Positions 1 through 8,700 of a stretch of DNA of 8,700 nt are shown here, piece by piece. Location of the stretch: positions 1-8,700 of the forward strand of contig CAMOGO010000037.1 of NCBI GenBank assembly GCA_946614075.1, given 5' to 3'. The notes beneath the pieces were generated by a model. The model saw only the letters and a program-made list of their open reading frames with translations, was not told where the DNA came from and did not search any database. Source of the DNA: an uncultured Lachnospiraceae bacterium. GTDB lineage: Bacteria; Bacillota_A; Clostridia; Lachnospirales; Lachnospiraceae. Each line of letters opens with the position of its first letter. The stretch's first letter is position 1. The position numbers and the translations under genes are program-made.

Positions 1-2
1 TA

Positions 3-1757
3 CTGGATCTGATTACAAATGCTCTGGAAAAGGGCTTTGTGGAAAATGGCTACGATGCCTCCTATGCGAAGGTGACGGTATCCAATCGTCCTGACCTTTG
101 CGAGTATCAGTGCAACGGAGCCCTGGCAGCAGCCAAAAAGTATCATAAAGCGCCGATGGTGATTGCTCAGGAGGTTCTTTCTTCGATGCAGGAGGTACCG
201 GAGTTTGAAAGCATCACGGTTGCCGCTCCGGGCTTTATCAATATGAAGGTTGGCGCCGGCTTCCTTTGCAGCTATATGAATGAGATGGCTCAGGATGAGA
301 AGCTGGGCGTCGAGGAGGTCGCGGAGCCCGAGACCGTCATGATCGACTTTGGCGGAGCCAATGTGGCAAAGCCTCTGCACGTCGGACATCTGCGCTCTGC
401 CATCATCGGCGAGAGCATCAAGCGGATTTACCGCTTTAAGGGCCACAAGGTGATCGGCGATGTACATCTGGGTGACTGGGGCCTGCAGATGGGGCTCATT
501 ATCACCGAGCTGAAGGAGAGAAAGCCGGACCTGGTCTATTTCGATGAGAGCTATGAAGGAGAGTATCCCGCAGAGGCACCGTTTACGATCAGCGAGCTGG
601 AGGAGATATATCCGGCAGCAAATGCCCGCTCAAAGGTGGACGAGGAGTTCAAGGAGCGTGCCCGCAATGCGACCTACCTGCTGCAGAATGGCTGCCGCGG
701 CTATGTCGCCCTGTGGAATCATATCCTGAACGTCTCTGTGACCGACCTCAAGCGGAACTACGACAATCTGAACGTGACCTTTGACCTCTGGAAAAAGGAG
801 AGCGATGCACAGCCTTACATCCCGGACATGGTACAGCGTCTGAAGGATGAGGGCTATGCCCACATCAGCAATGGCGCCCTGGTCGTCGATGTCGCTGAGG
901 AGACGGACACGAAGGAGATTCCTCCGTGCATGATCCTGAAGTCGGACGGAGCGACCCTTTACAATACCACCGATTTGGCAACCCTGGTCGAGAGACGGAA
1001 GCTTTTTGATCCGGACCAGATCATCTACGTCGTGGACAAGAGACAGGGCCTCTACTTTGAGCAGGTCTTCCGCTGCGCACGTAAGACCCACATCGTACGT
1101 GACGGCGTCAAGCTGACCTTCCTCGGCTTCGGCACGATGAACGGAAGCGACGGAAAGCCTTTCAAGACCCGCGATGGCGGCGTCATGCGCTTAGAGCACC
1201 TGATGAAGGAGATCAACGACGCGGTATACGACCGCATCATGGAGAACAGGACTGTCCCGGAGGAAGAAGCCAGGGAGACTTCCCGCGTGATCGGACTTGC
1301 CGCCCTGAAATACGGCGATCTGTCCAATCAGGCTGTCAAGGACTATGTATTTGATGTCGACCGCTTTACCTCTTTTGAGGGAAATACCGGCCCGTACATC
1401 CAGTACACGATCGTCCGTATCCGCTCGATCCTGAAGAAATACGAGGCACTTCCGGATGCGAAGGAGGCCGTGAAGATCCTTCCGGCTACCTCTGAGGCAG
1501 AGCGCGACCTGCAGCTGAAGCTTTCCAAGTTCAATGAGCTGATCGAGGCTTCCTATCAGGAGAATGCGCCGCACAAGATCTGCCAGTACATCTATGAGCT
1601 GTCGGATGTGTTCAATCGCTTTTATCATGAGACCAAGATCCTTTCCGAGGAGGATGCTGACCGCCGTGCAGGCTATATTGCCCTGCTGAAGCTGACGGTC
1701 CGTGCCCTGGAGACCGGCATCGGCCTTCTGGGCTTTGACGCTCCGGAGAGAATGTAG
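3..1757 (+). CDS. argS: Arginyl-tRNA synthetase, 5' end cut by the window edge
   Basis: Class I aminoacyl-tRNA synthetase that charges tRNA-Arg with arginine in the cytoplasm. The reading frame is open from base 3, and family members usually begin a few residues before an LDLI-type stretch like the one seen here, so only a handful of N-terminal residues should be missing. The GTG at 39 is therefore not the real start. Domains in order: the N-terminal tRNA-recognition domain (bases about 3-300, including SNRPDLCEYQCNGALAAAKK), then the Rossmann catalytic domain with the HIGH motif HVGH at 378-389. The KMSK-loop equivalent GKPFKTRDGG is at 1152-1181. Many ArgRS enzymes have such a divergent KMSK loop, and a lysine just before HIGH (KPLHVGH, present here) is thought to compensate. 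The C-terminal helical DALR/anticodon-binding domain begins near NTGPYIQYT (from about 1383) and ends in the usual PERM tail. The next gene starts 17 bases downstream. Confidence 0.97.
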   Translation: MDLITNALEKGFVENGYDASYAKVTVSNRPDLCEYQCNGALAAAKKYHKAPMVIAQEVLSSMQEVPEFESITVAAPGFINMKVGAGFLCSYMNEMAQDEKLGVEEVAEPETVMIDFGGANVAKPLHVGHLRSAIIGESIKRIYRFKGHKVIGDVHLGDWGLQMGLIITELKERKPDLVYFDESYEGEYPAEAPFTISELEEIYPAANARSKVDEEFKERARNATYLLQNGCRGYVALWNHILNVSVTDLKRNYDNLNVTFDLWKKESDAQPYIPDMVQRLKDEGYAHISNGALVVDVAEETDTKEIPPCMILKSDGATLYNTTDLATLVERRKLFDPDQIIYVVDKRQGLYFEQVFRCARKTHIVRDGVKLTFLGFGTMNGSDGKPFKTRDGGVMRLEHLMKEINDAVYDRIMENRTVPEEEARETSRVIGLAALKYGDLSNQAVKDYVFDVDRFTSFEGNTGPYIQYTIVRIRSILKKYEALPDAKEAVKILPATSEAERDLQLKLSKFNELIEASYQENAPHKICQYIYELSDVFNRFYHETKILSEEDADRRAGYIALLKLTVRALETGIGLLGFDAPERM

Positions 1758-1774
1758 GTTCTGGAGACAAGAAT

Positions 1775-3091
1775 TTGAAAAATATCGTAGTGATCGGCGC
1801 GGGTCCTGCCGGCATGATGGCCGCCTACTCGGCGGCTCAGGCAGGATGCCGCGTGGATCTGATCGAAAAAAACGAAAAGACGGGGAAGAAGCTCTATATC
1901 ACCGGGAAGGGCCGCTGCAATGTGACCAATGCCTCGGAGATCGCCGATTTTTTCCCGAAGATCGTGACGAACCGGAAGTTTCTGTACCATGCGCTGTACG
2001 CCTTCACCAATGAGAATCTGATGAAGCTTCTTGCCGAGAATGGCCTGACGTTAAAGACGGAGCGTGGAAACCGTGTTTTTCCCGCGTCGGACAAATCCTC
2101 GGATGTGATCCGTACGGTACAGAGGATGGTGGAGCGCGCCGGTGTGAAGATTCATCTGAATACCGAGGTGCTTTCGGTCGAAAAGGACGAAGATGCCGGT
2201 CTTTTTACGATTCGGACCAAGAAGCTCATCCCGCGTGGGAGTGCTGCAGGGCAGGAGAAATCAGATCCGGGGAAGGAGAAAGCAGATCCCGCTGAAAAGA
2301 CCTTTACCGCGCAGGCGGTCATCGTGGCAACGGGAGGGCGGTCTTATCCCTCGACCGGTTCCACCGGCGACGGCTATCGTATCGCTCGTGACTTCGGCCA
2401 TAGCGTGACAGAGCTTTCCCCGGCTCTGGCGGCCTTTGTGACCAAAGAAGCCTGGGTGGCAGACCTGCAGGGCCTGTCCCTGAAGAATATCGAGGTTACG
2501 ATCCGAAACGGGAAAAAGAAGCTTTATCAGGAATTCGGGGAGATGCTTTTTACGCATTTCGGCGTCAGCGGCCCCGTGATCCTGAGCGGCAGCAGCATCT
2601 GCGCGAAGGCTTTGAAGGAAGGGCCGCTCAGCCTTTCTATCAATTTGAAGCCTGCCCTTAGCGTGGAGCAGCTGGATGCCCGGATCGAGAGGGAGCTGGC
2701 GGTCAATCCGAAGAAGCATCTGAAAAATGTCCTGCAGACGATGCTTCCGGCAAGGCTGGCCGCGGTATTCGCGTCGATTTCCGGGATCGGGGAGGAGCGT
2801 GAGGCGGCATCCCTTAGCGCCAGAGATCGGGAGCAGATCCGCGATCTTCTGCGGAGCTTCCCCATGACGCTTACCGGGCTTAGAGGCTTTGAGGAAGCTA
2901 TCATCACACAGGGCGGCGTTACGGTGAAGGAGATCGATCCAGCCACGATGGAATCCAAGAAGGTTCCGGGGCTTTATTTTGCCGGTGAGGTGCTTGACGT
3001 GGACGCCTGCACAGGAGGGTATAATCTCCAGATCGCCTGGTCGACCGGCTATACCGCCGGCACCGCGGCAGGTCAGGACGAGGAAGGATGA
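1775..3091 (+). CDS. HI0933/YhiN/BaiN-family FAD-dependent oxidoreductase
   Basis: Cytosolic flavoprotein of 438 residues, normal for the family. The N-terminal dinucleotide-binding motif GAGPAG is at residues 8-13. The family-typical TGKGRCNVTN follows at 43-52, ATGGRSYPSTGSTGDG at 185-200, and the C-terminal FAD-contacting block GLYFAGEVLDVDACTGGYN at 399-417. The start is TTG at 1775, chosen because GGAG at 1763-1766 sits 8 bases upstream and the Rossmann strand begins right after it. One family member, BaiN, is linked to bile-acid 7-dehydroxylation in clostridia, but most members are conserved housekeeping proteins of unclear substrate. The neighbourhood here (argS, cmk) gives no hint of bile-acid metabolism. 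Oddity: residues about 151-175 form a Lys/Glu/Pro-rich linker containing a 7-residue tandem duplication (EKSDPGK then EKADPAE). The stop overlaps the first possible cmk start as ATGA. The family call is firm; the substrate is unknown. Confidence 0.93.
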   Translation: MKNIVVIGAGPAGMMAAYSAAQAGCRVDLIEKNEKTGKKLYITGKGRCNVTNASEIADFFPKIVTNRKFLYHALYAFTNENLMKLLAENGLTLKTERGNRVFPASDKSSDVIRTVQRMVERAGVKIHLNTEVLSVEKDEDAGLFTIRTKKLIPRGSAAGQEKSDPGKEKADPAEKTFTAQAVIVATGGRSYPSTGSTGDGYRIARDFGHSVTELSPALAAFVTKEAWVADLQGLSLKNIEVTIRNGKKKLYQEFGEMLFTHFGVSGPVILSGSSICAKALKEGPLSLSINLKPALSVEQLDARIERELAVNPKKHLKNVLQTMLPARLAAVFASISGIGEEREAASLSARDREQIRDLLRSFPMTLTGLRGFEEAIITQGGVTVKEIDPATMESKKVPGLYFAGEVLDVDACTGGYNLQIAWSTGYTAGTAAGQDEEG

Positions 3092-3780
3092 GACGGAATA
3101 TGACTATGAGAAGAAATATCGCAATCGATGGCCCGGCAGGAGCCGGCAAGAGCACGATCGCCAGACGCCTCGCGGCTATGCTCGGACTGATCTATGTGGA
3201 TACCGGGGCGATGTATAGGACCATGGGGCTTTTCTGCAGCCGCCTGGGCGTGGATGTAAAGGACGCCGGCGCGGTGGAGGCCGTGATGGATGAGGCTAAG
3301 ATCACCCTGGACTATGTGGATGGCGTCCAGCAGATTTTCCTGAATGGAGAGAACGTCAGCACGGCAATCCGCCAGCCGGAGGTCAGCATGCTGGCATCCG
3401 ACGTCAGCGTTCATCCGGGTGTCAGAGCCAGACTGGTGCACATGCAGCAGGAGATGGCACGGGTGAAAAACGTGGTCATGGATGGCCGCGACATCGGAAC
3501 CGTCGTCCTTCCGGACGCCTTCCTGAAGATCTATCTGACCGCATCTGTTGAGGAGCGCGCCCGCCGCCGGTATGAGGAGTATCTTGCGAAGGGGCAGGAG
3601 GCTGACCTTTCTCAGATCGAGAAGGAGATCGCCGAGAGAGACCACCAGGATATGACCCGTCCGGTTTCGCCTCTGAAGCAGGCGGAGGACGCGGTGCTCG
3701 TCGATTCGACGACGATGGGGATCGAGGAAGTAACCGATACCATCAAGGCACTTTACGAAGAAAAATGCCGTCAGGCTTGA
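3088..3780 (+). CDS. cmk: (d)CMP kinase (cytidylate kinase)
   Basis: Phosphorylates CMP and dCMP to the diphosphates with ATP, a pyrimidine salvage and recycling step in the cytoplasm. Numbered from the first ATG (230 residues), it has the P-loop GPAGAGKST at 15-23 and VDTGAMYR at 37-44. MDGRDIGTVVLPDA follows at 131-144, the LID arginines RARRR at 157-161, and RDHQDMTRPVSPL at 184-196. These match the bacterial Cmk family end to end. The start is uncertain: ATGs at 3088, 3100 and 3106 are all in frame. The first overlaps the upstream stop as ATGA, which favours coupling, but AGGA at 3081-3084 lies only 3 bases from it. AAGG ending at 3087 is 12 bases from the ATG at 3100. The ATG at 3106 gives the usual family N-terminus MRRNIAIDG. 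Placement before ispH and rpsA follows a common Firmicutes order. Confidence 0.97.
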   Translation: MRRNMTMRRNIAIDGPAGAGKSTIARRLAAMLGLIYVDTGAMYRTMGLFCSRLGVDVKDAGAVEAVMDEAKITLDYVDGVQQIFLNGENVSTAIRQPEVSMLASDVSVHPGVRARLVHMQQEMARVKNVVMDGRDIGTVVLPDAFLKIYLTASVEERARRRYEEYLAKGQEADLSQIEKEIAERDHQDMTRPVSPLKQAEDAVLVDSTTMGIEEVTDTIKALYEEKCRQA

Positions 3781-3803
3781 TGCAGATCGAGGGAAACGAA
3801 AGT

Positions 3804-4652
3804 ATGAGAAATGTGACAGTCGCAAAGACAGCCGGATTCTGCTTCGGTGTGAAGCGGGCGGTCGACCAGGTCAATGAGCTGGCCCAGGACAAGTCGCGCC
3901 GGATCCTGACCTATGGGCCGATCATTCATAATGAAGAGGTTGTCCGGGAGTTTGAGGAGAAGGGGGTCCATGTCCTCGACGAGGACGATGACCTGAAGAA
4001 CGTCAGCGGAGCCACGGTTGTGATCCGGTCTCATGGCGTCGGACCGCAGGTTTATGAAAAATTAATCAAGGCCGGATGCGAAATCGCAGACGCCACCTGC
4101 CCCTTTGTCGAGCGAATCCATAAGCTTGTCCGAAAAGCTTCTGAGGAGGGAAAGACCGTCGTGATCGCCGGAAACCCGGATCATCCCGAGGTTCAGGGTA
4201 TCAGCGCTTTTTCACTGACTCCCGTTTTCTGCATCGAAACCGCAGCGGATATTGACAGATTGTCCATACCGAAGGACAAGCCTGTTTTTCTGGCGGCACA
4301 AACAACATTTAATTACAAGAAATTTGAAGATATAGTTGAAAAGTTCGAAAAAAAGGAGTATGATACTCATATTGTAAACACTATCTGTAACGCTACTCAG
4401 GAACGGCAGGAAGAAGCCAGGAGAATTGCGCAGCTTTCAGACGTTATGTTTGTCATCGGTGGGAAGAGCAGTTCAAACACGCAGAAACTTGTTGAGATTT
4501 GCAGGAACGAATGCGCTAGTACCTATTATATACAGACAGCAGCAGATATCCGGACAGATGTTTTACATGATGGGGAAAACGTAGGCATAACCGCTGGTGC
4601 ATCGACCCCGAGGAATATCATTGAGGAGGTCAAAACAAAATGTCAGAATTAA
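3804..4652 (+). CDS. ispH: 4-hydroxy-3-methylbut-2-enyl diphosphate reductase (IspH/LytB)
   Basis: Last enzyme of the MEP isoprenoid pathway. It reduces HMBPP to IPP and DMAPP with a [4Fe-4S] cluster in the cytoplasm. The protein is 282 residues. The three cluster cysteines are present: C13 (GFCFGVKRA), C99 (DATCPFV) and C195 (TICNATQERQEEA). The substrate pocket is also complete: H42, H77, H127 and E129 (NPDHPEVQG), T167/T168 (AAQTT), S223 and N225 (GGKSSSNT), and S267 (GASTPR). The start at 3804 is preferred over an in-frame ATG at 3765 because GAGGGA at 3789-3794 lies 9 bases upstream and the family N-terminus begins here; the longer version would run into the cmk end. Codon use shifts: by hand count, 4261-4620 is about 43% GC (bases 4321-4380 only 25%), versus about 67% for 3841-3900. 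The last 13 bases overlap rpsA in another frame. Some Clostridia carry IspH fused to S1; here the two are separate. Confidence 0.97.
   Translation: MRNVTVAKTAGFCFGVKRAVDQVNELAQDKSRRILTYGPIIHNEEVVREFEEKGVHVLDEDDDLKNVSGATVVIRSHGVGPQVYEKLIKAGCEIADATCPFVERIHKLVRKASEEGKTVVIAGNPDHPEVQGISAFSLTPVFCIETAADIDRLSIPKDKPVFLAAQTTFNYKKFEDIVEKFEKKEYDTHIVNTICNATQERQEEARRIAQLSDVMFVIGGKSSSNTQKLVEICRNECASTYYIQTAADIRTDVLHDGENVGITAGASTPRNIIEEVKTKCQN
4336..4364 (+). promoter_or_regulatory. Candidate sigma-A promoter inside ispH, upstream of rpsA
   Basis: TTGAAA at 4336-4341 and TATGAT at 4359-4364 are separated by exactly 17 bases, each matching 5 of 6 consensus positions. An A-rich tract lies in the spacer. It sits in the most AT-rich 60 bases of the ispH region, where codon choice departs from neighbouring G/C-ending codons. 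Transcription would start near 4371, giving rpsA a leader of about 270 bases and a supply independent of the upstream operon. Chance matches are more likely in AT-rich DNA, and the protein sequence constrains some of these bases. Confidence 0.5.
4624..4629 (+). promoter_or_regulatory. rpsA ribosome binding site embedded in ispH
   Basis: A full AGGAGG lies 10 bases before the rpsA ATG at 4640 and is itself translated as part of the last ispH codons. The spacer is an A-rich single-stranded-looking stretch. It fixes the rpsA start and implies that ribosomes finishing ispH (stop at 4650-4652) are already over the rpsA initiation site. Confidence 0.85.
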
Positions 4653-5815
4653 GTTTTGAACAGTTATTGGAAGAGTCTTTAAAAACAATCCATACGGGGG
4701 AGGTCGTAACCGGTAAGGTGATCGATGTTAAGGACGACGAAATCATCCTGAACATCGGCTACAAGTCTGACGGAATCATCAGCAAGAACGAGTATTCCAA
4801 TGACAGCAGCATCAACCTGAAGGAGGCAGTCAAGGTCGGCGATGAGATCGAGGCTAAGATCCTTAAGGTCAACGATGGCGAGGGCCAGGTATCTCTTTCT
4901 TACAAGAGACTGGCTGCAGACCGTGGAAACAAGAGACTGGAAGAGGCATTCAACAATCAGGAAGTACTCACTGCTACCGTAACGCAGGTACTTTCCGGCG
5001 GTCTTACTGTTGAAGTCGAGGGAACCAGAGTCTTTATTCCTGCAAGCCTGGTATCGGATACTTATGAGAGAAATCTCGAGAAGTACAATGGCCAGGAGAT
5101 CCAGTTCGTCATCACCGAGTTCAACCCGAAGAAGAGAAGAATCATCGGCAACCGCAGACAGATCGTTTCCCAGCAGAAGGCAGCAGCTAAGGAAGCTCTG
5201 TTCTCCCGCATCCAGGAAGGCATGACTGTCACCGGTACCGTAAAGAATATCACCGATTTCGGTGCATTCATCGACCTGGGCGGCGCAGATGGCCTGCTTC
5301 ATGTTTCCGAGATGAGCTGGGGCCGCATCGAGCGTCCGAAGAACGTCTTCACCGTAGGTCAGGAAGTTACCTGCTTCATCAAGGAGATCAAGGGTGAGAA
5401 GATCGCCCTCAGCTGCAAGTTCCCGGGAGAGGATCCGTGGGAGAAGGCAGCCGTTTCCTACGCAGTCGGCAATGTCGTCAGCGGCCGTGTTGCCCGCATG
5501 ACTGACTTTGGTGCATTCATCGAGCTTGGCGACGGTATCGACGCTCTGCTTCATGTTTCCCAGATCTCCCGCACTCGCGTTGAGAAGCCGTCTGATGTCC
5601 TGAAGGTCGGCCAGATCATCGAGGCTCAGGTTGTTGATTTCAACGCCGAGAGCAAGCGCATCAGCCTCAGCATGAAGGCTCTGGAGCAGCCGGCTCGCCA
5701 CGAGGAGGCAGCACCGGTTGAGATCCCGTCCGCACCGGAAGTTGCTATGGAGCAGCCGGAGTCCAATACGATGGCAGCTGCTTTAAGCGCAGCAATGGAG
5801 AGTGCTAACGACTAA
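4640..5815 (+). CDS. rpsA: Ribosomal protein S1 homologue, four S1 domains
   Basis: RNA-binding protein of the S1 family, expected to act with the 30S subunit in mRNA binding and translation initiation. The 391-residue length and four OB-fold S1 repeats are the Firmicutes pattern; proteobacterial S1 has six. S1 repeats lie at about 19-90, 107-175, 193-261 and 277-348. Repeats 3 and 4 are the most canonical: each has TDFGAFI-L and a GLLHVS/ALLHVS block. Repeat 2 is divergent, with VFIPASLV instead of the HVS box. Residues 349-391 form an Ala/Pro/Glu-rich, probably disordered tail. The start at 4640 is set by AGGAGG at 4624-4629. Codon use is strongly biased (ATC, AAG, GGC, CGC), fitting a highly expressed gene. 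The gene ends 22 bases before a strong terminator. Firmicutes S1 homologues are sometimes not tightly ribosome-bound, so the exact role may differ from E. coli S1. Confidence 0.95.
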   Translation: MSELSFEQLLEESLKTIHTGEVVTGKVIDVKDDEIILNIGYKSDGIISKNEYSNDSSINLKEAVKVGDEIEAKILKVNDGEGQVSLSYKRLAADRGNKRLEEAFNNQEVLTATVTQVLSGGLTVEVEGTRVFIPASLVSDTYERNLEKYNGQEIQFVITEFNPKKRRIIGNRRQIVSQQKAAAKEALFSRIQEGMTVTGTVKNITDFGAFIDLGGADGLLHVSEMSWGRIERPKNVFTVGQEVTCFIKEIKGEKIALSCKFPGEDPWEKAAVSYAVGNVVSGRVARMTDFGAFIELGDGIDALLHVSQISRTRVEKPSDVLKVGQIIEAQVVDFNAESKRISLSMKALEQPARHEEAAPVEIPSAPEVAMEQPESNTMAAALSAAMESAND

Positions 5816-5837
5816 TCCAGTCTGATAATCAAAAGTA

Positions 5838-5875
5838 AAGCCCTGGCGAGTAATCGCCAGGGTTTCTTCTTTTAT
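5838..5875 (+). terminator. Rho-independent terminator after rpsA, probably bidirectional
   Basis: CCCTGGCG (5841-5848) and CGCCAGGG (5855-5862) form a perfect 8-bp stem with loop AGTAAT. The stem can extend by 3 weaker pairs. The + strand continues with the T-rich TTTCTTCTTTTAT. Read on the - strand, the same stem is followed by CTTTACTTTT, so it can also stop transcription of the convergent nuclease gene. Confidence 0.93.
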
Positions 5876-5928
5876 GCGCACGGCCGCCTCAAGGAAAGTG
5901 TTGCCTTACGGCAACAGGCGGCCGGCGC
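5876..5928. repeat. Nested GC-rich inverted repeat between convergent genes
   Basis: Bases 5876-5889 pair with 5916-5928 in 13 base pairs, interrupted only by an unpaired A at 5880. Inside, GTTGCC (5900-5905) pairs with GGCAAC (5910-5915) around a TTAC loop and abuts the 3' arm of the outer stem. All unpaired bases (CAAGGAAAGT, 5890-5899) are therefore on the 5' side. No T-run follows on either strand, so it does not look like a simple terminator. It could be a REP-like dispersed repeat or a structured RNA end. No known family is recognised. Confidence 0.7.
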
Positions 5929-5930
5929 GG

Positions 5931-5962
5931 CGAGCAGGAGGAGGTTTGCCGACTCCTGCTCG
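5931..5962. repeat. 10-bp perfect inverted repeat at the nuclease 3' end
   Basis: CGAGCAGGAG (5931-5940) and CTCCTGCTCG (5953-5962) pair perfectly around a 12-base loop. It begins 9 bases past the stop codon of the leftward gene, where it could protect the 3' end of that mRNA. No U-tract follows on the - strand, so termination more likely happens at the 5841-5862 hairpin. Loop bases TTGCC (5946-5950) are complementary to GGCAA (5910-5914) in the neighbouring hairpin, so an alternative pairing is possible. Confidence 0.7.
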
Positions 5963-5970
5963 ATTGGAGT

Positions 5971-7059
5971 TTAAAATGTCTTCAGGAAGCCGTGTAAAAG
6001 GGCTTCTGCCTGGGTGGGGGTGATTTCCACGCCTTCCTGCCAGGAAAAGTAGTAGTTCCGGTCCTTGCGTGTGGTCTTGAACTCGGGGAGGATGATGCTT
6101 CCCGGCTGCGGATAGAAAAAGCCATCCTTTCGCACACAGCACTCATCCGGGGACACCTTTGTGCGGTAAGCCGGGTCCACGGAGGAACCGATGCTCTTGG
6201 GGACGATGCGCTTCTCCAGGGTCAGGTAATAGTAATCCTTGGGATTGGGAAGATAGTGTGCCAGTGTGTCCTGACGGGGGAGCAGGAACAGCGACAAGGT
6301 ATTCCGGCGGCCGTCGATCCGGAAAAGCTCCGTGGAGGAGATAAAGGGCCGGGGGAGGTGGCAGGGACCGGAATAGTGAAGGCATAAAGCCGGCGCATCC
6401 CCCTCCTTGCTGCGGGAAAGGTCGATGGTGCTTTGCCCCTCGTAATGCCAGGGGAGTGAAGCCAGGTCCAGATAGGTCAGGATCGGCAGGAGCTCGGGCA
6501 TACCCATGACATCCTCTTCATTGTGCAGCATCAGGTCGTGTTCGTCCGCGTCGGTCGGACGGTTCAGAAAGCGGTGGTAGACCTCGATCAGCTCCCCGCC
6601 GGTGAAGACATCCTCGCGGTCAATCCCCAGGAAGCGTTCGATGGTTTTCAGCTTGACATTCTCCAGGGAGAGGAGCTTCTTGACCGGGCGGCACAGCTTG
6701 AGCAGATCCGTGCTTTCAAAAAGAGGAAAGGGATCTGACAAGGAATAGTGGGAGAAGCGTCCCTTTAAAAAAGGAATGTCAAAGGTATCTCCGTTAAAAT
6801 GGACGATCCGGTCAAAGCCCATGAGGAAAGCACTGAAAGCCTTCAGGACAGCCGCTTCTTCGAAAGCCGTATCGGCGAACCACTGGATGAAATGCCAGTC
6901 CTGATCCTCATACCAGGTCGCTCCGATCAGGTAAACCTGATGATAGCGGCTGGAGAGTCCTGTCGTTTCGATATCAAAAAACAGGCTGCGGCCGGGAAAT
7001 CTCCGGAAAAAGGCTTCACAGTCAGCCTGCGGGCGGTAATTCTTCTCAATCACCTTCAT
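5971..7059 (-). CDS. YprB-like RNase H-fold protein, putative 3'-5' exonuclease
   Basis: The 362-residue protein carries an N-terminal DEDD-type exonuclease fold. Motif I is FFDIETTG, with acidic D29 and E31. Motif II is HFNGDTFDIPFL at 86-97, with N88, D90 and D93. Motif III is HNEEDVMGM, with H178 and D182. Between them lies the family-typical TDLLKLCRPVKKLL...LGIDREDVFTGGE region. All expected metal-binding acids are present, so an active nuclease is plausible, but the substrate is unknown. Residues about 190-362 are not a domain I can name; they contain a Tyr-rich segment (DYYYLTLEK) and a C-terminal helix-like end. Similar C-terminal extensions occur in Lachnospiraceae homologues as I recall them. 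The ATG at 7059 is supported by AAGGAG 9 bases upstream. It is divergent from ruvAB across 231 bases holding LexA-like boxes and convergent with rpsA. No membrane segment or signal peptide is seen. Confidence 0.88.
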   Translation of the reverse strand: MKVIEKNYRPQADCEAFFRRFPGRSLFFDIETTGLSSRYHQVYLIGATWYEDQDWHFIQWFADTAFEEAAVLKAFSAFLMGFDRIVHFNGDTFDIPFLKGRFSHYSLSDPFPLFESTDLLKLCRPVKKLLSLENVKLKTIERFLGIDREDVFTGGELIEVYHRFLNRPTDADEHDLMLHNEEDVMGMPELLPILTYLDLASLPWHYEGQSTIDLSRSKEGDAPALCLHYSGPCHLPRPFISSTELFRIDGRRNTLSLFLLPRQDTLAHYLPNPKDYYYLTLEKRIVPKSIGSSVDPAYRTKVSPDECCVRKDGFFYPQPGSIILPEFKTTRKDRNYYFSWQEGVEITPTQAEALLHGFLKTF

Positions 7060-7060
7060 G

Positions 7061-7075
7061 AAAGGTTACTCCTTT
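7061..7075 (-). promoter_or_regulatory. Ribosome binding site of the nuclease gene in a small hairpin
   Basis: On the - strand, AAGGAG (7074-7069) lies 9 bases before the ATG at 7059 and decides this start. The same bases can form AAAGG-AGTAA-CCTTT, a 5-bp stem that ends just before the ATG. Weak occlusion of the site is possible but the stem is short. Confidence 0.6.
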
Positions 7076-7081
7076 ACAAAG

Positions 7082-7122
7082 CCATGAACGTACAAATCCA
7101 TGAATGGATATAGTCCATGAAC
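7082..7122. repeat. Three direct repeats CCATGAAC/T in the nuclease leader
   Basis: CCATGAAC (7082-7089), CCATGAAT (7098-7105) and CCATGAAC (7115-7122) occur at 16- and 17-base steps. On the - strand they read GTTCATGG, ATTCATGG, GTTCATGG. The copy at 7115 runs into the LexA-like box. The copy at 7082 supplies another GAAC half-site. ATGGA/TCCAT pairs within the array could also form small RNA hairpins. Confidence 0.7.
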
Positions 7123-7131
7123 ATACGTTTA
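7118..7131. promoter_or_regulatory. LexA/DinR box candidate for the nuclease gene
   Basis: TGAACATACGTTTA matches the Bacillus subtilis LexA consensus CGAACRNRYGTTYC at 12 of 14 positions, with an intact GAAC-N4-GTTT core. It lies immediately downstream of the - strand -10 candidate (7137-7142), over the expected transcription start, a good position for a repressor. Confidence 0.6.
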
Positions 7132-7136
7132 GGAGC

Positions 7137-7165
7137 ATTGTAACCGATCTAGGCGCCGAAAACAA
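7137..7165 (-). promoter_or_regulatory. Candidate promoter for the nuclease gene
   Basis: Read on the - strand, TTGTTT (7165-7160) and TACAAT (7142-7137) are 17 bases apart. The -10 matches 5 of 6 positions; the -35 only 3 of 6. The start would fall near 7130, giving a leader of about 70 bases and placing the LexA-like box at 7118-7131 over the start point. Confidence 0.45.
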
Positions 7166-7184
7166 GCATACACGCACAAAATAC

Positions 7185-7198
7185 CGAACAAATGTGCG
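7185..7198. promoter_or_regulatory. LexA/DinR box candidate in the ruvA/nuclease divergent region
   Basis: CGAACAAATGTGCG matches the palindromic Firmicutes LexA operator CGAACATATGTTCG at 12 of 14 positions. The left half CGAAC is perfect and the right half has one change (GTGCG for GTTCG). ruvAB is a known LexA target in several bacteria, which supports the call. It sits about 20 bases upstream of the best ruvA -35 candidate, so direct blocking of that promoter is less obvious than at the other box. Confidence 0.6.
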
Positions 7199-7218
7199 GC
7201 ATACCCTTGCGTTTTCTT

Positions 7219-7247
7219 TTGACTCATGGTATCGTAGCGGGTAGAAA
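7219..7247 (+). promoter_or_regulatory. Candidate promoter for ruvAB
   Basis: TTGACT (7219-7224, 5 of 6 matches) and TAGAAA (7242-7247, 4 of 6) are separated by 17 bases. The start would be near 7254, giving a leader of about 37 bases. TATAGT at 7266-7271 is a closer -10 match but has no -35 partner and lies too near the ribosome binding site. Confidence 0.5.
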
Positions 7248-7290
7248 AAAAGACGAAGCCTTTTTTATAGTACAGAGGAAATAGGATAAG

Positions 7291-7893
7291 ATGATAGCAA
7301 GTATTCATGGAGAGCTTCTGGAGGTGTCCGAGGAGGGCATCGTCGTAGAGGCCGCCGGAGTCGGATATAATATTATGGTGCCGGGCACGGTCCTTTCGGA
7401 GCTGCCGCGCGTGGGACAGGAGGTCCGGATTTACACGCACCTGTCGGTCCGCGAGGACGCGATGAAGCTGTATGGCTTTCTCGACCGGGAGGAGCTGGAG
7501 ATTTTTCGCCTGCTGATCGGCGTCAGCGGGATCGGCCCGAAGGGAGCCTTGGGGATCCTCACGGCTTTGACGGTCGATGAGCTGCGGATCGCTGTCCTCA
7601 CCGATGATCTGAAAACCATCGGAAAGGCGCCCGGTATCGGGAAAAAGACCGCGCAGAAGCTGATCCTGGAGCTCAAGGACAGGATGAAGCTGGTCGACGA
7701 GCAGTTCCTGAAGACGGAGAGCAGCGCCGCACCGGCAGGATCCGCCGAGACCGGACGAGACGAGGCGATCCAGGCTCTGATGGCACTCGGGTACTCAAGC
7801 TCCGAGGCATTGCATGCCATCCGAAGCGTGGAGCTTGGTCCGGAGGCAACGGCGGAGGAGTGGATCCGGGAATCCTTACGGTTCCTTTCCTAA
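7291..7893 (+). CDS. ruvA: Holliday junction branch migration subunit RuvA
   Basis: RuvA tetramers bind four-way DNA junctions and recruit RuvB motors for branch migration during recombinational repair. The 200-residue length is standard. The N-terminal OB-fold domain I starts MIASIHGELLEV and covers about 1-62. Domain II carries two helix-hairpin-helix motifs, GVSGIGPKGAL at 77-87 and APGIGKKTAQKLILELKDR at 113-131. A flexible Ser/Ala/Gly linker covers about 136-155, and the RuvB-contacting domain III (156-200) contains RDEAIQALMALGYSSSEA. The ATG at 7291 matches the family N-terminus. Upstream purine-rich bases (AGAGGA near 7274, AGGA at 7283-7286) make an imperfectly spaced ribosome binding site, which would fit modest expression. 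ruvB follows 24 bases after the stop, so the two form one operon, probably SOS-controlled given the LexA-like boxes upstream. Confidence 0.98.
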   Translation: MIASIHGELLEVSEEGIVVEAAGVGYNIMVPGTVLSELPRVGQEVRIYTHLSVREDAMKLYGFLDREELEIFRLLIGVSGIGPKGALGILTALTVDELRIAVLTDDLKTIGKAPGIGKKTAQKLILELKDRMKLVDEQFLKTESSAAPAGSAETGRDEAIQALMALGYSSSEALHAIRSVELGPEATAEEWIRESLRFLS

Positions 7894-7917
7894 TCCCACG
7901 AAGAGGAGGTTTTTCAT

Positions 7918-8700
7918 ATGCCTAAGCGTGTGATCTCGACGGAGGTTACCGACGAGGATCTTGTCATAGAGAATCATCTCCGGCCTCAGAAGCTGGATGA
8001 CTATATCGGCCAGAAAAAGGCCAAGGAGACCCTGAAAATCTACATGGAGGCTGCCAAGAGCCGCCAGGAATCCCTGGACCACGTCCTGCTTTACGGACCT
8101 CCGGGTCTTGGAAAGACGACGCTGGCCGGCATCATTGCCAATGAGATGGGAGTCAATCTGAAGATTACCGCCGGACCCGCGATTGAAAAGCCGGGTGAGA
8201 TGGCGGCGATCCTGAATAATCTGAAAGAGGGCGATGTCCTTTTCGTCGATGAGATCCACCGGCTGAACCGCCAGGTGGAGGAGGTCCTGTATCCAGCGAT
8301 GGAGGATTTTGCCATCGATATCGTCATCGGAAAGGGAACGGCGGCCCGCTCCATACGGCTGGATCTGCCGCATTTTACCCTGGTCGGTGCTACAACCCGC
8401 GCCGGCATGCTGACGGCACCGCTGAGGGACCGCTTCGGCGTCGTGCACCGGCTTGAGTTTTATACCCCGGACGAGCTGATGGAGATCATCCGCCGGTCGG
8501 CGAAGGTTCTGAAGGTGGAGATTGACGACAAGGGAGCAGCGGAGATTGCCGCGAGATCCCGGGGAACCCCGAGACTGGCGAACCGCCTGCTGAAGCGTCT
8601 GCGTGATTTCGCCCAGGTCAAGTACGACGGCGTGATTAATGAGGAAGTCGCGAATTTTGCCCTGGATATCCTGGATGTCGACAAGCTGGGCCTTGACCGC
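7918..8700 (+). CDS. ruvB: Holliday junction branch migration helicase RuvB, 3' end beyond the window
   Basis: AAA+ ATPase that forms hexameric rings around DNA and pumps it through the RuvA-bound junction. The frame is open from the ATG at 7918 to the window end (261 codons of a family length near 330-340), so most of the C-terminal winged-helix domain is missing. Seen motifs: the N-terminal [12 protein letters not shown] at 21-32, Walker [10 protein letters not shown] at 60-68, Walker B with DEIH at 111-114, sensor 1 GATTRAG at 157-163 and the arginine-finger segment APLRDRFG at 167-174. The sensor 2 region [13 protein letters not shown] begins at 215. All expected catalytic residues are present. 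The start is fixed by a strong AGGAGG at 7904-7909, 8 bases upstream and much better than the ruvA site, so RuvB may be made in excess. That fits its hexameric use, but this is inference. Confidence 0.98.

Follow-up and report, generated by a model that had tools for sequence, protein, structure and literature searches.

A conserved LexA-type box, probably the operator of ruvAB, between divergent ruvAB and MrfB-like exonuclease genes in Lachnospiraceae

The DNA analysed here is a stretch of 8,700 nt from an uncultured Lachnospiraceae bacterium (assembly GCA_946614075.1, contig CAMOGO010000037.1, positions 1 to 8,700; hereafter the window), in which ruvAB lies divergent from a gene for a YprB/MrfB-like DEDD exonuclease (hereafter yprB), with two LexA-like boxes in the 231 bp between them. 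One of these, CGAACAAATGTGCG at 7185-7198, is on sequence grounds a conserved LexA-type element, kin to the recA and lexA operators; it is probably the LexA operator of ruvAB, placed between back-to-back promoters, and would make ruvAB LexA-repressed and damage-induced. What the analysis shows directly is the sequence of this element, that it is conserved, that it is of one type with the recA and lexA operators and that it goes with ruvA. As for the other box, TGAACATACGTTTA at 7118-7131, SOS control of the nuclease through it is possible and would be specific to the lineage of the window, not a trait of the family.

A sequence-only reading of the window had placed both boxes, within 81 bases, between a YprB-like DEDD protein and ruvAB, each matching the Firmicutes LexA operator at 12 of 14 positions. 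Boxes and flanking genes are as that reading described them: each 14-mer is single-copy in the window, counting by hand against CGAACRNRYGTTYC, which we take to be that operator, returns the same 12/14 and the same span of 81 bases, and each box has seven of the eight core positions of a GAAC-N4-GTTY-type palindrome. A plain GAACNNNNGTTY scan tolerating one mismatch is weak evidence for the boxes, returning 21 matches in the window with 11.2 expected, a count that 2 of 200 shuffles reach. A symmetric LexA matrix is sharper: it was built from 77 lexA/recA boxes with at least 7/8 core matches in 16 related Lachnospiraceae-type genomes, boxes which, being chosen by core similarity, leave the matrix not blind to the motif but blind to the yprB-ruvA locus. 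By this matrix the two boxes are the top two sites of the window, 7185-7198 with 14.3 bits and 7118-7131 with 12.6 bits. With a uniform background and the matrix as employed in the conservation counts below, the scores are 14.0 and 11.7 bits, the latter slightly under the 12-bit line. For two such sites to fall by chance within these 231 bp, the probability lies between about 5e-6 and 6e-5, varying with matrix and background.

Conservation was counted in the 56 of 80 yprB loci in which ruvA is divergent from yprB within 700 bp. Sites of at least 12 bits occur in 35 of these 56 gaps (shuffle mean 0.22, 50 rounds) and sites of at least 10 bits in 38 (shuffle mean 0.94), while matches of at least 12 bits number 36 in 10,076 positions inside the gaps versus 10 in 500,023 positions outside. 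The commonest form of the conserved site, CGAACAAATATTCT, is found in 22/56 gaps with the spacer unchanged too, and as an exact 14-mer it occurs once per genome in eight of 16 whole genomes, always beside yprB by coordinates. Box 7185-7198 stands in the window where the relatives have CGAACAAATATTCT and similar sites. The scan of orthologous yprB-ruvA gaps that the sequence-only reading had proposed for both boxes thus recovers the 7185-7198 type in 35/56 relatives and the 7118-7131 box in none.

For comparison with LexA targets, the regions upstream of lexA and recA were inspected in 16 genomes (G001-G016) drawn from those behind the 80 yprB loci. Both genes were found in all 16, and a perfect GAAC-N4-GTTC core (8/8) precedes recA in 16/16 and lexA in 15/16 genomes; lexA has additional boxes at 7/8 core, many of them with a GTTT half-site. 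In eight of the 16 genomes recA is preceded by CGAACAAATGTTCT, one base from CGAACAAATATTCT. That ruvAB might be a LexA target here, as the sequence-only reading noted to be established in several bacteria, is in keeping with a conserved box of LexA operator type and with relatives whose lexA genes (16/16) come with matching operators. The LexA-type boxes upstream of lexA (L081-L096) are clustered, two to five together, each with 7 or 8 of 8 core positions, and forms such as CGAACAAAGGTTTG and CGAACATATGTTAC recur among them. The uvrB gene was tried as a third LexA reference and dropped from the matrix, a perfect core being present upstream in only 6 of 15 genes.

The conserved box can be assigned to ruvAB because of its spacing to the ruvA -35 element and because it tracks ruvA rather than yprB where the two genes are apart. 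Among the 38 relatives with a site of at least 10 bits, 24 (22 with a wider search range) have 7-9 bp between the end of the box and the best-scoring ruvA -35. Spacing to the yprB -35 is less tight, the fullest 3-bp bin (6-8 bp) holding 14 of 38. These -35 picks are automatic and the first ruvA-side range was shorter than that on the yprB side; a repeat with equal ranges gives 24 vs 14 or 22 vs 14 of 38. In the window, the ruvA promoter that we adopted is predicted from likeness to the nearest genome locus (L001) and to other relatives (e.g. TTGCAT-17-TATGAT), and the TGG ahead of its -10 reads, by eye, as an extended -10. The automatic pick, TTGACT-17-TAGAAA, was set aside as a matter of judgement, given that TTGCGT-17-TATCGT sits where L001 and 24/38 relatives have theirs.

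Locus L001, from a Lachnospiraceae bacterium known as a metagenome-assembled genome of roe-deer rumen, is informative about which gene retains the box. Its YprB and RuvB are 46% and 87% identical to those of the window, and among 397 genomes searched (family of G001) none scores above that of L001 (335 bits; next 270). Within L001 2998-5478, yprB is inverted with respect to the window, and two open reading frames (4083-4928 and 4925-5239, azlC/azlD-like by eye) lie between yprB and ruvA. There ruvA keeps CGAACGTCTGTGCG (10.3 bits), followed by 8 bp, TTGCGT, 17 bp and TAGGAT (both elements by eye), which is the window layout of CGAACAAATGTGCG-8 bp-TTGCGT-17-TATCGT, and yprB has no site within 400 bp upstream. 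More generally, where the genes were not seen side by side, sites of at least 12 bits precede 7/22 ruvA and 0/24 yprB genes (Fisher p 0.003), and sites of at least 10 bits 9/22 and 2/24, respectively (Fisher p 0.015). Contig ends truncate some of these upstream regions (yprB of L019, L041, L046 and L052; ruvA of L209 and L214), and a few pairs scored as apart, e.g. L041 and L214, may be neighbours across a contig break; the ruvA search covered 20 genomes and gave no match in two. The proposal that the nuclease is under the same control is not supported by these counts as a general statement.

The box at 7118-7131 was proposed to lie over the start site of yprB, and in the window it does lie on the predicted start, beginning 5 bases past the predicted yprB -10 (7137-7142, minus strand), a good place for a repressor. 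That part of the proposal does not extend to other genomes: a counterpart is present in 0/56 divergent relatives and none precedes yprB in L001. None of the 56 carries two separate sites of at least 10 bits, the apparent pair in L036 being two overlapping readings of one site. The GAAC half of the box falls within a CCATGAAC direct repeat (CCATGAACGTAC at 7082, CCATGAACATAC at 7115), and by itself the box compares with 0.003-0.011 chance sites expected in the gap. Two further features of the yprB leader were noted, namely imperfect direct repeats of TACAAAGCCATGAA and CCATGAACGTAC over 7075-7126, and a short minus-strand frame of about 14-16 codons that ends on the yprB ribosome-binding site and lacks a ribosome-binding site of its own (by eye).

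We propose the following scheme, whose regulatory steps, from the binding of LexA through repression and induction to a possible effect on yprB, are what we infer. The LexA operator, which would be ruvAB's by descent, would stand between the -35 elements of two back-to-back promoters. In undamaged cells LexA on 7185-7198 would repress ruvAB; upon damage, activated RecA would promote LexA self-cleavage, and ruvAB would be induced for branch migration of recombination junctions. As the gene for the MrfB-like exonuclease shares the spacer, bound LexA may dampen yprB too, from upstream, and in the lineage of the window alone yprB may in addition be repressed directly, through the weaker second box at its start.

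Several observations weigh against this scheme. No site of at least 12 bits is found in 21/56 divergent gaps, nor at 15/22 of the ruvA genes not seen beside yprB; the species behind the counts and the Fisher test are related, and kinship is uncorrected. The lexA evidence comes from the genomes of 16 relatives and not from that of the window organism, and the promoter adopted for ruvA in the window differs from the automatic pick. A position upstream of both -35 elements, and not over a promoter, is less usual for a repressor. Finally, the relatives' box is asymmetric and less variable than lexA boxes, and this asymmetry and uniformity may reflect another constraint on it. One rival reading makes the element the operator of a different regulator, or a fixed promoter-upstream element belonging to ruvA whose likeness to a LexA site is accidental: the element does lie upstream of the -35, and CGAACAAATATTCT is unchanged, spacer included, in 22/56 gaps, whereas lexA boxes vary. 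We consider such an origin improbable, as CGAACAAATATTCT and the recA box of 8/16 genomes differ at a single base, the window and L001 retain a palindrome of this type in which it is the other half-site that is weakened, and LexA targets a ruv operon in Clostridium difficile (PMC4234289, in the part of the text available). Chance resemblance is harder still to credit. The loose one-mismatch scan does yield 21 matches in the window, but the matrix ranking, the conservation and the enrichment inside gaps speak against it. The box at 7118-7131 taken alone, which is not conserved and for which 0.003-0.011 sites are expected in the gap, may still be a chance resemblance.

It is also conceivable, if somewhat doubtful, that both are SOS genes, with LexA repressing yprB through its own start-site box plus the shared box, which would tie the exonuclease to recombinational repair. 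Divergent pairing in 56/80 loci would suit this, as would the distance of 5-10 bp between the shared box and the best-scoring yprB -35 in 20/38 relatives, although that spacing is looser than on the ruvA side (best 3-bp bin 14/38 vs 24 or 22/38). The second-best matrix site of the window lies on the predicted yprB start, and its GTTT half-site has precedent in relatives' lexA boxes and in C. difficile operators (PMC4234289, available text); opposed to this are the local direct repeat to which its GAAC half belongs and the absence of a second site of at least 10 bits in the 56 divergent relatives and of any before L001 yprB. Similarly, a repair role is known for MrfB in Bacillus subtilis (PMC11194089, available text), and yet yprB genes not seen beside ruvA have a site in 0/24 cases at 12 bits and 2/24 at 10 bits.

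Features of the window are collected in Table 1. In the protein database, relatives of the window protein are found at 99% and about 51% identity (P0001-P0003). An Rfam scan gave a single chance match (E 0.83, 26.6 bits vs the curators' 50), and of 37 records from a plasmid collection none covers 80% of the query, the five matches listed involving the ruvB part only. A promoter/terminator scan of 6900-7400 returned one of each, with 0.7 and 0.6 in shuffles.

Table 1. Genes, predicted promoters and LexA-like boxes of the window
Feature	Position	Strand	Remarks
argS	3-1757	+	
HI0933-like flavoprotein	1775-3091	+	
cmk	3088-3780	+	
ispH/lytB	3765-4652	+	
Four-S1-domain protein	4640-5815	+	
YprB/MrfB-like DEDD exonuclease, 362 aa, RNase_H_2	5971-7059	-	PF13482, E 4.4e-35
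Second LexA-like box TGAACATACGTTTA, on predicted yprB start	7118-7131		Second-best matrix site in window
Predicted yprB promoter (-35 TTGTTT, 17 bp, -10 TACAAT)	7137-7165	-	Consensus match only
Putative LexA-type operator CGAACAAATGTGCG, conserved; 8 bp upstream of predicted ruvA -35	7185-7198		Top matrix site in window
Predicted ruvA promoter (-35 TTGCGT, 17 bp, -10 TATCGT)	7207-7235	+	Likeness to L001 and relatives
ruvA	7291-7893	+	RuvA_N, HHH_5, RuvA_C
ruvB, extends past window end	7918-8700	+	RuvB_N, E 7.1e-83

The nuclease itself (residue numbers exclude the start Met) is predicted with high confidence to have a polymerase-type DEDD exonuclease fold over residues 21-196. Against the PDB, its profile has MrfB as the best-scoring solved structure (8un9, E 1.1e-15, profile positions 20-189), and D28, E30, D93, H178 and D182, invariant in 22 aligned sequences, supply the DEDDh catalytic residues of an RNase H-like fold, as judged from sequence and model. 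NCBIfam returned only weak exonuclease matches, far below cut-offs. In both models the last 160 residues fold into a beta-rich domain (predicted local distance difference test score of 91.9 for the piece modelled alone) with no convincing Pfam or PDB match and no Pfam TPR match; its consensus in relatives includes KSVGExVD, CYT and FLPQ motifs, from which the window copy departs in part.

An MrfB-like nuclease is present in all 16 genomes, as a single strong RNase_H_2 match per genome (above 100 bits, others below 33). The MZB domain, a mark of the MrfA helicase, was detected in five of them, in three cases in open frames shorter than 900 aa, and was not found in the other 11. Neither gene adjoining yprB in the window encodes an MrfA-type helicase. 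Most of these MrfB-like nucleases thus appear to be without their known partner MrfA, an absence made uncertain by the draft state of some assemblies. One might speculate that in Lachnospiraceae an MrfB-type exonuclease no longer belongs to the MrfA excision pathway, has acquired a C-terminal domain with no recognised relative and acts together with RuvAB on recombination intermediates. Both genes would then share a LexA-controlled divergent promoter region, and in the lineage of the window the nuclease would have acquired a LexA box of its own; we find this unlikely.

For a large family of gut bacteria the conserved box indicates what the LexA operator probably looks like, and it would assign ruvAB to the SOS regulon in many Lachnospiraceae. 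A LexA site at ruvAB is in itself ordinary, and should only ruvAB respond to damage, the locus would be ordinary as well; what it frames is the question whether an MrfB-type nuclease without MrfA acts as a damage-response gene. Among the literature matches listed, from a search mostly outside subscription journals, there is no account of the yprB-ruvA locus or of a Lachnospiraceae SOS regulon.

The closest known systems are found in C. difficile and B. subtilis, for which we refer to the available parts of the papers cited. In C. difficile, interaction of LexA with the ruvCA operator was found by surface plasmon resonance, and the operators include GTTT half-sites (PMC4234289). Both there and in the window a GAAC-N4-GTTT/C-type box precedes a ruv operon, but the C. 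difficile operon starts with ruvC, whereas in the window an exonuclease gene runs divergently from ruvA, with the box placed ahead of the -35 elements of both genes. In a B. subtilis transposon screen for DNA damage, ruvAB are among the genes of lowered fitness and yprA and yprB appear in a table of hits (PMC6051672), a listing that fits a repair role for yprB and is silent on its control. The family had been called poorly characterised, which is partly outdated: MrfB of B. subtilis has been characterised as a DEDDh exonuclease that acts in mitomycin repair (PMC11194089), in a paper whose main text mentions neither SOS nor LexA. The catalytic residues of the window protein are spaced, within one residue, as D107, E109, D172, H258 and D262 of MrfB (PMC11194089). 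Unlike the 3′-5′ exonuclease domain of family B DNA polymerases, the window nuclease is encoded by a stand-alone gene without a polymerase. It differs from MrfB in having the beta-rich C-terminal domain in the place of the TPR domain, and the MrfB gene lies beside mrfA, whereas the nuclease gene of the window lies beside ruvAB.
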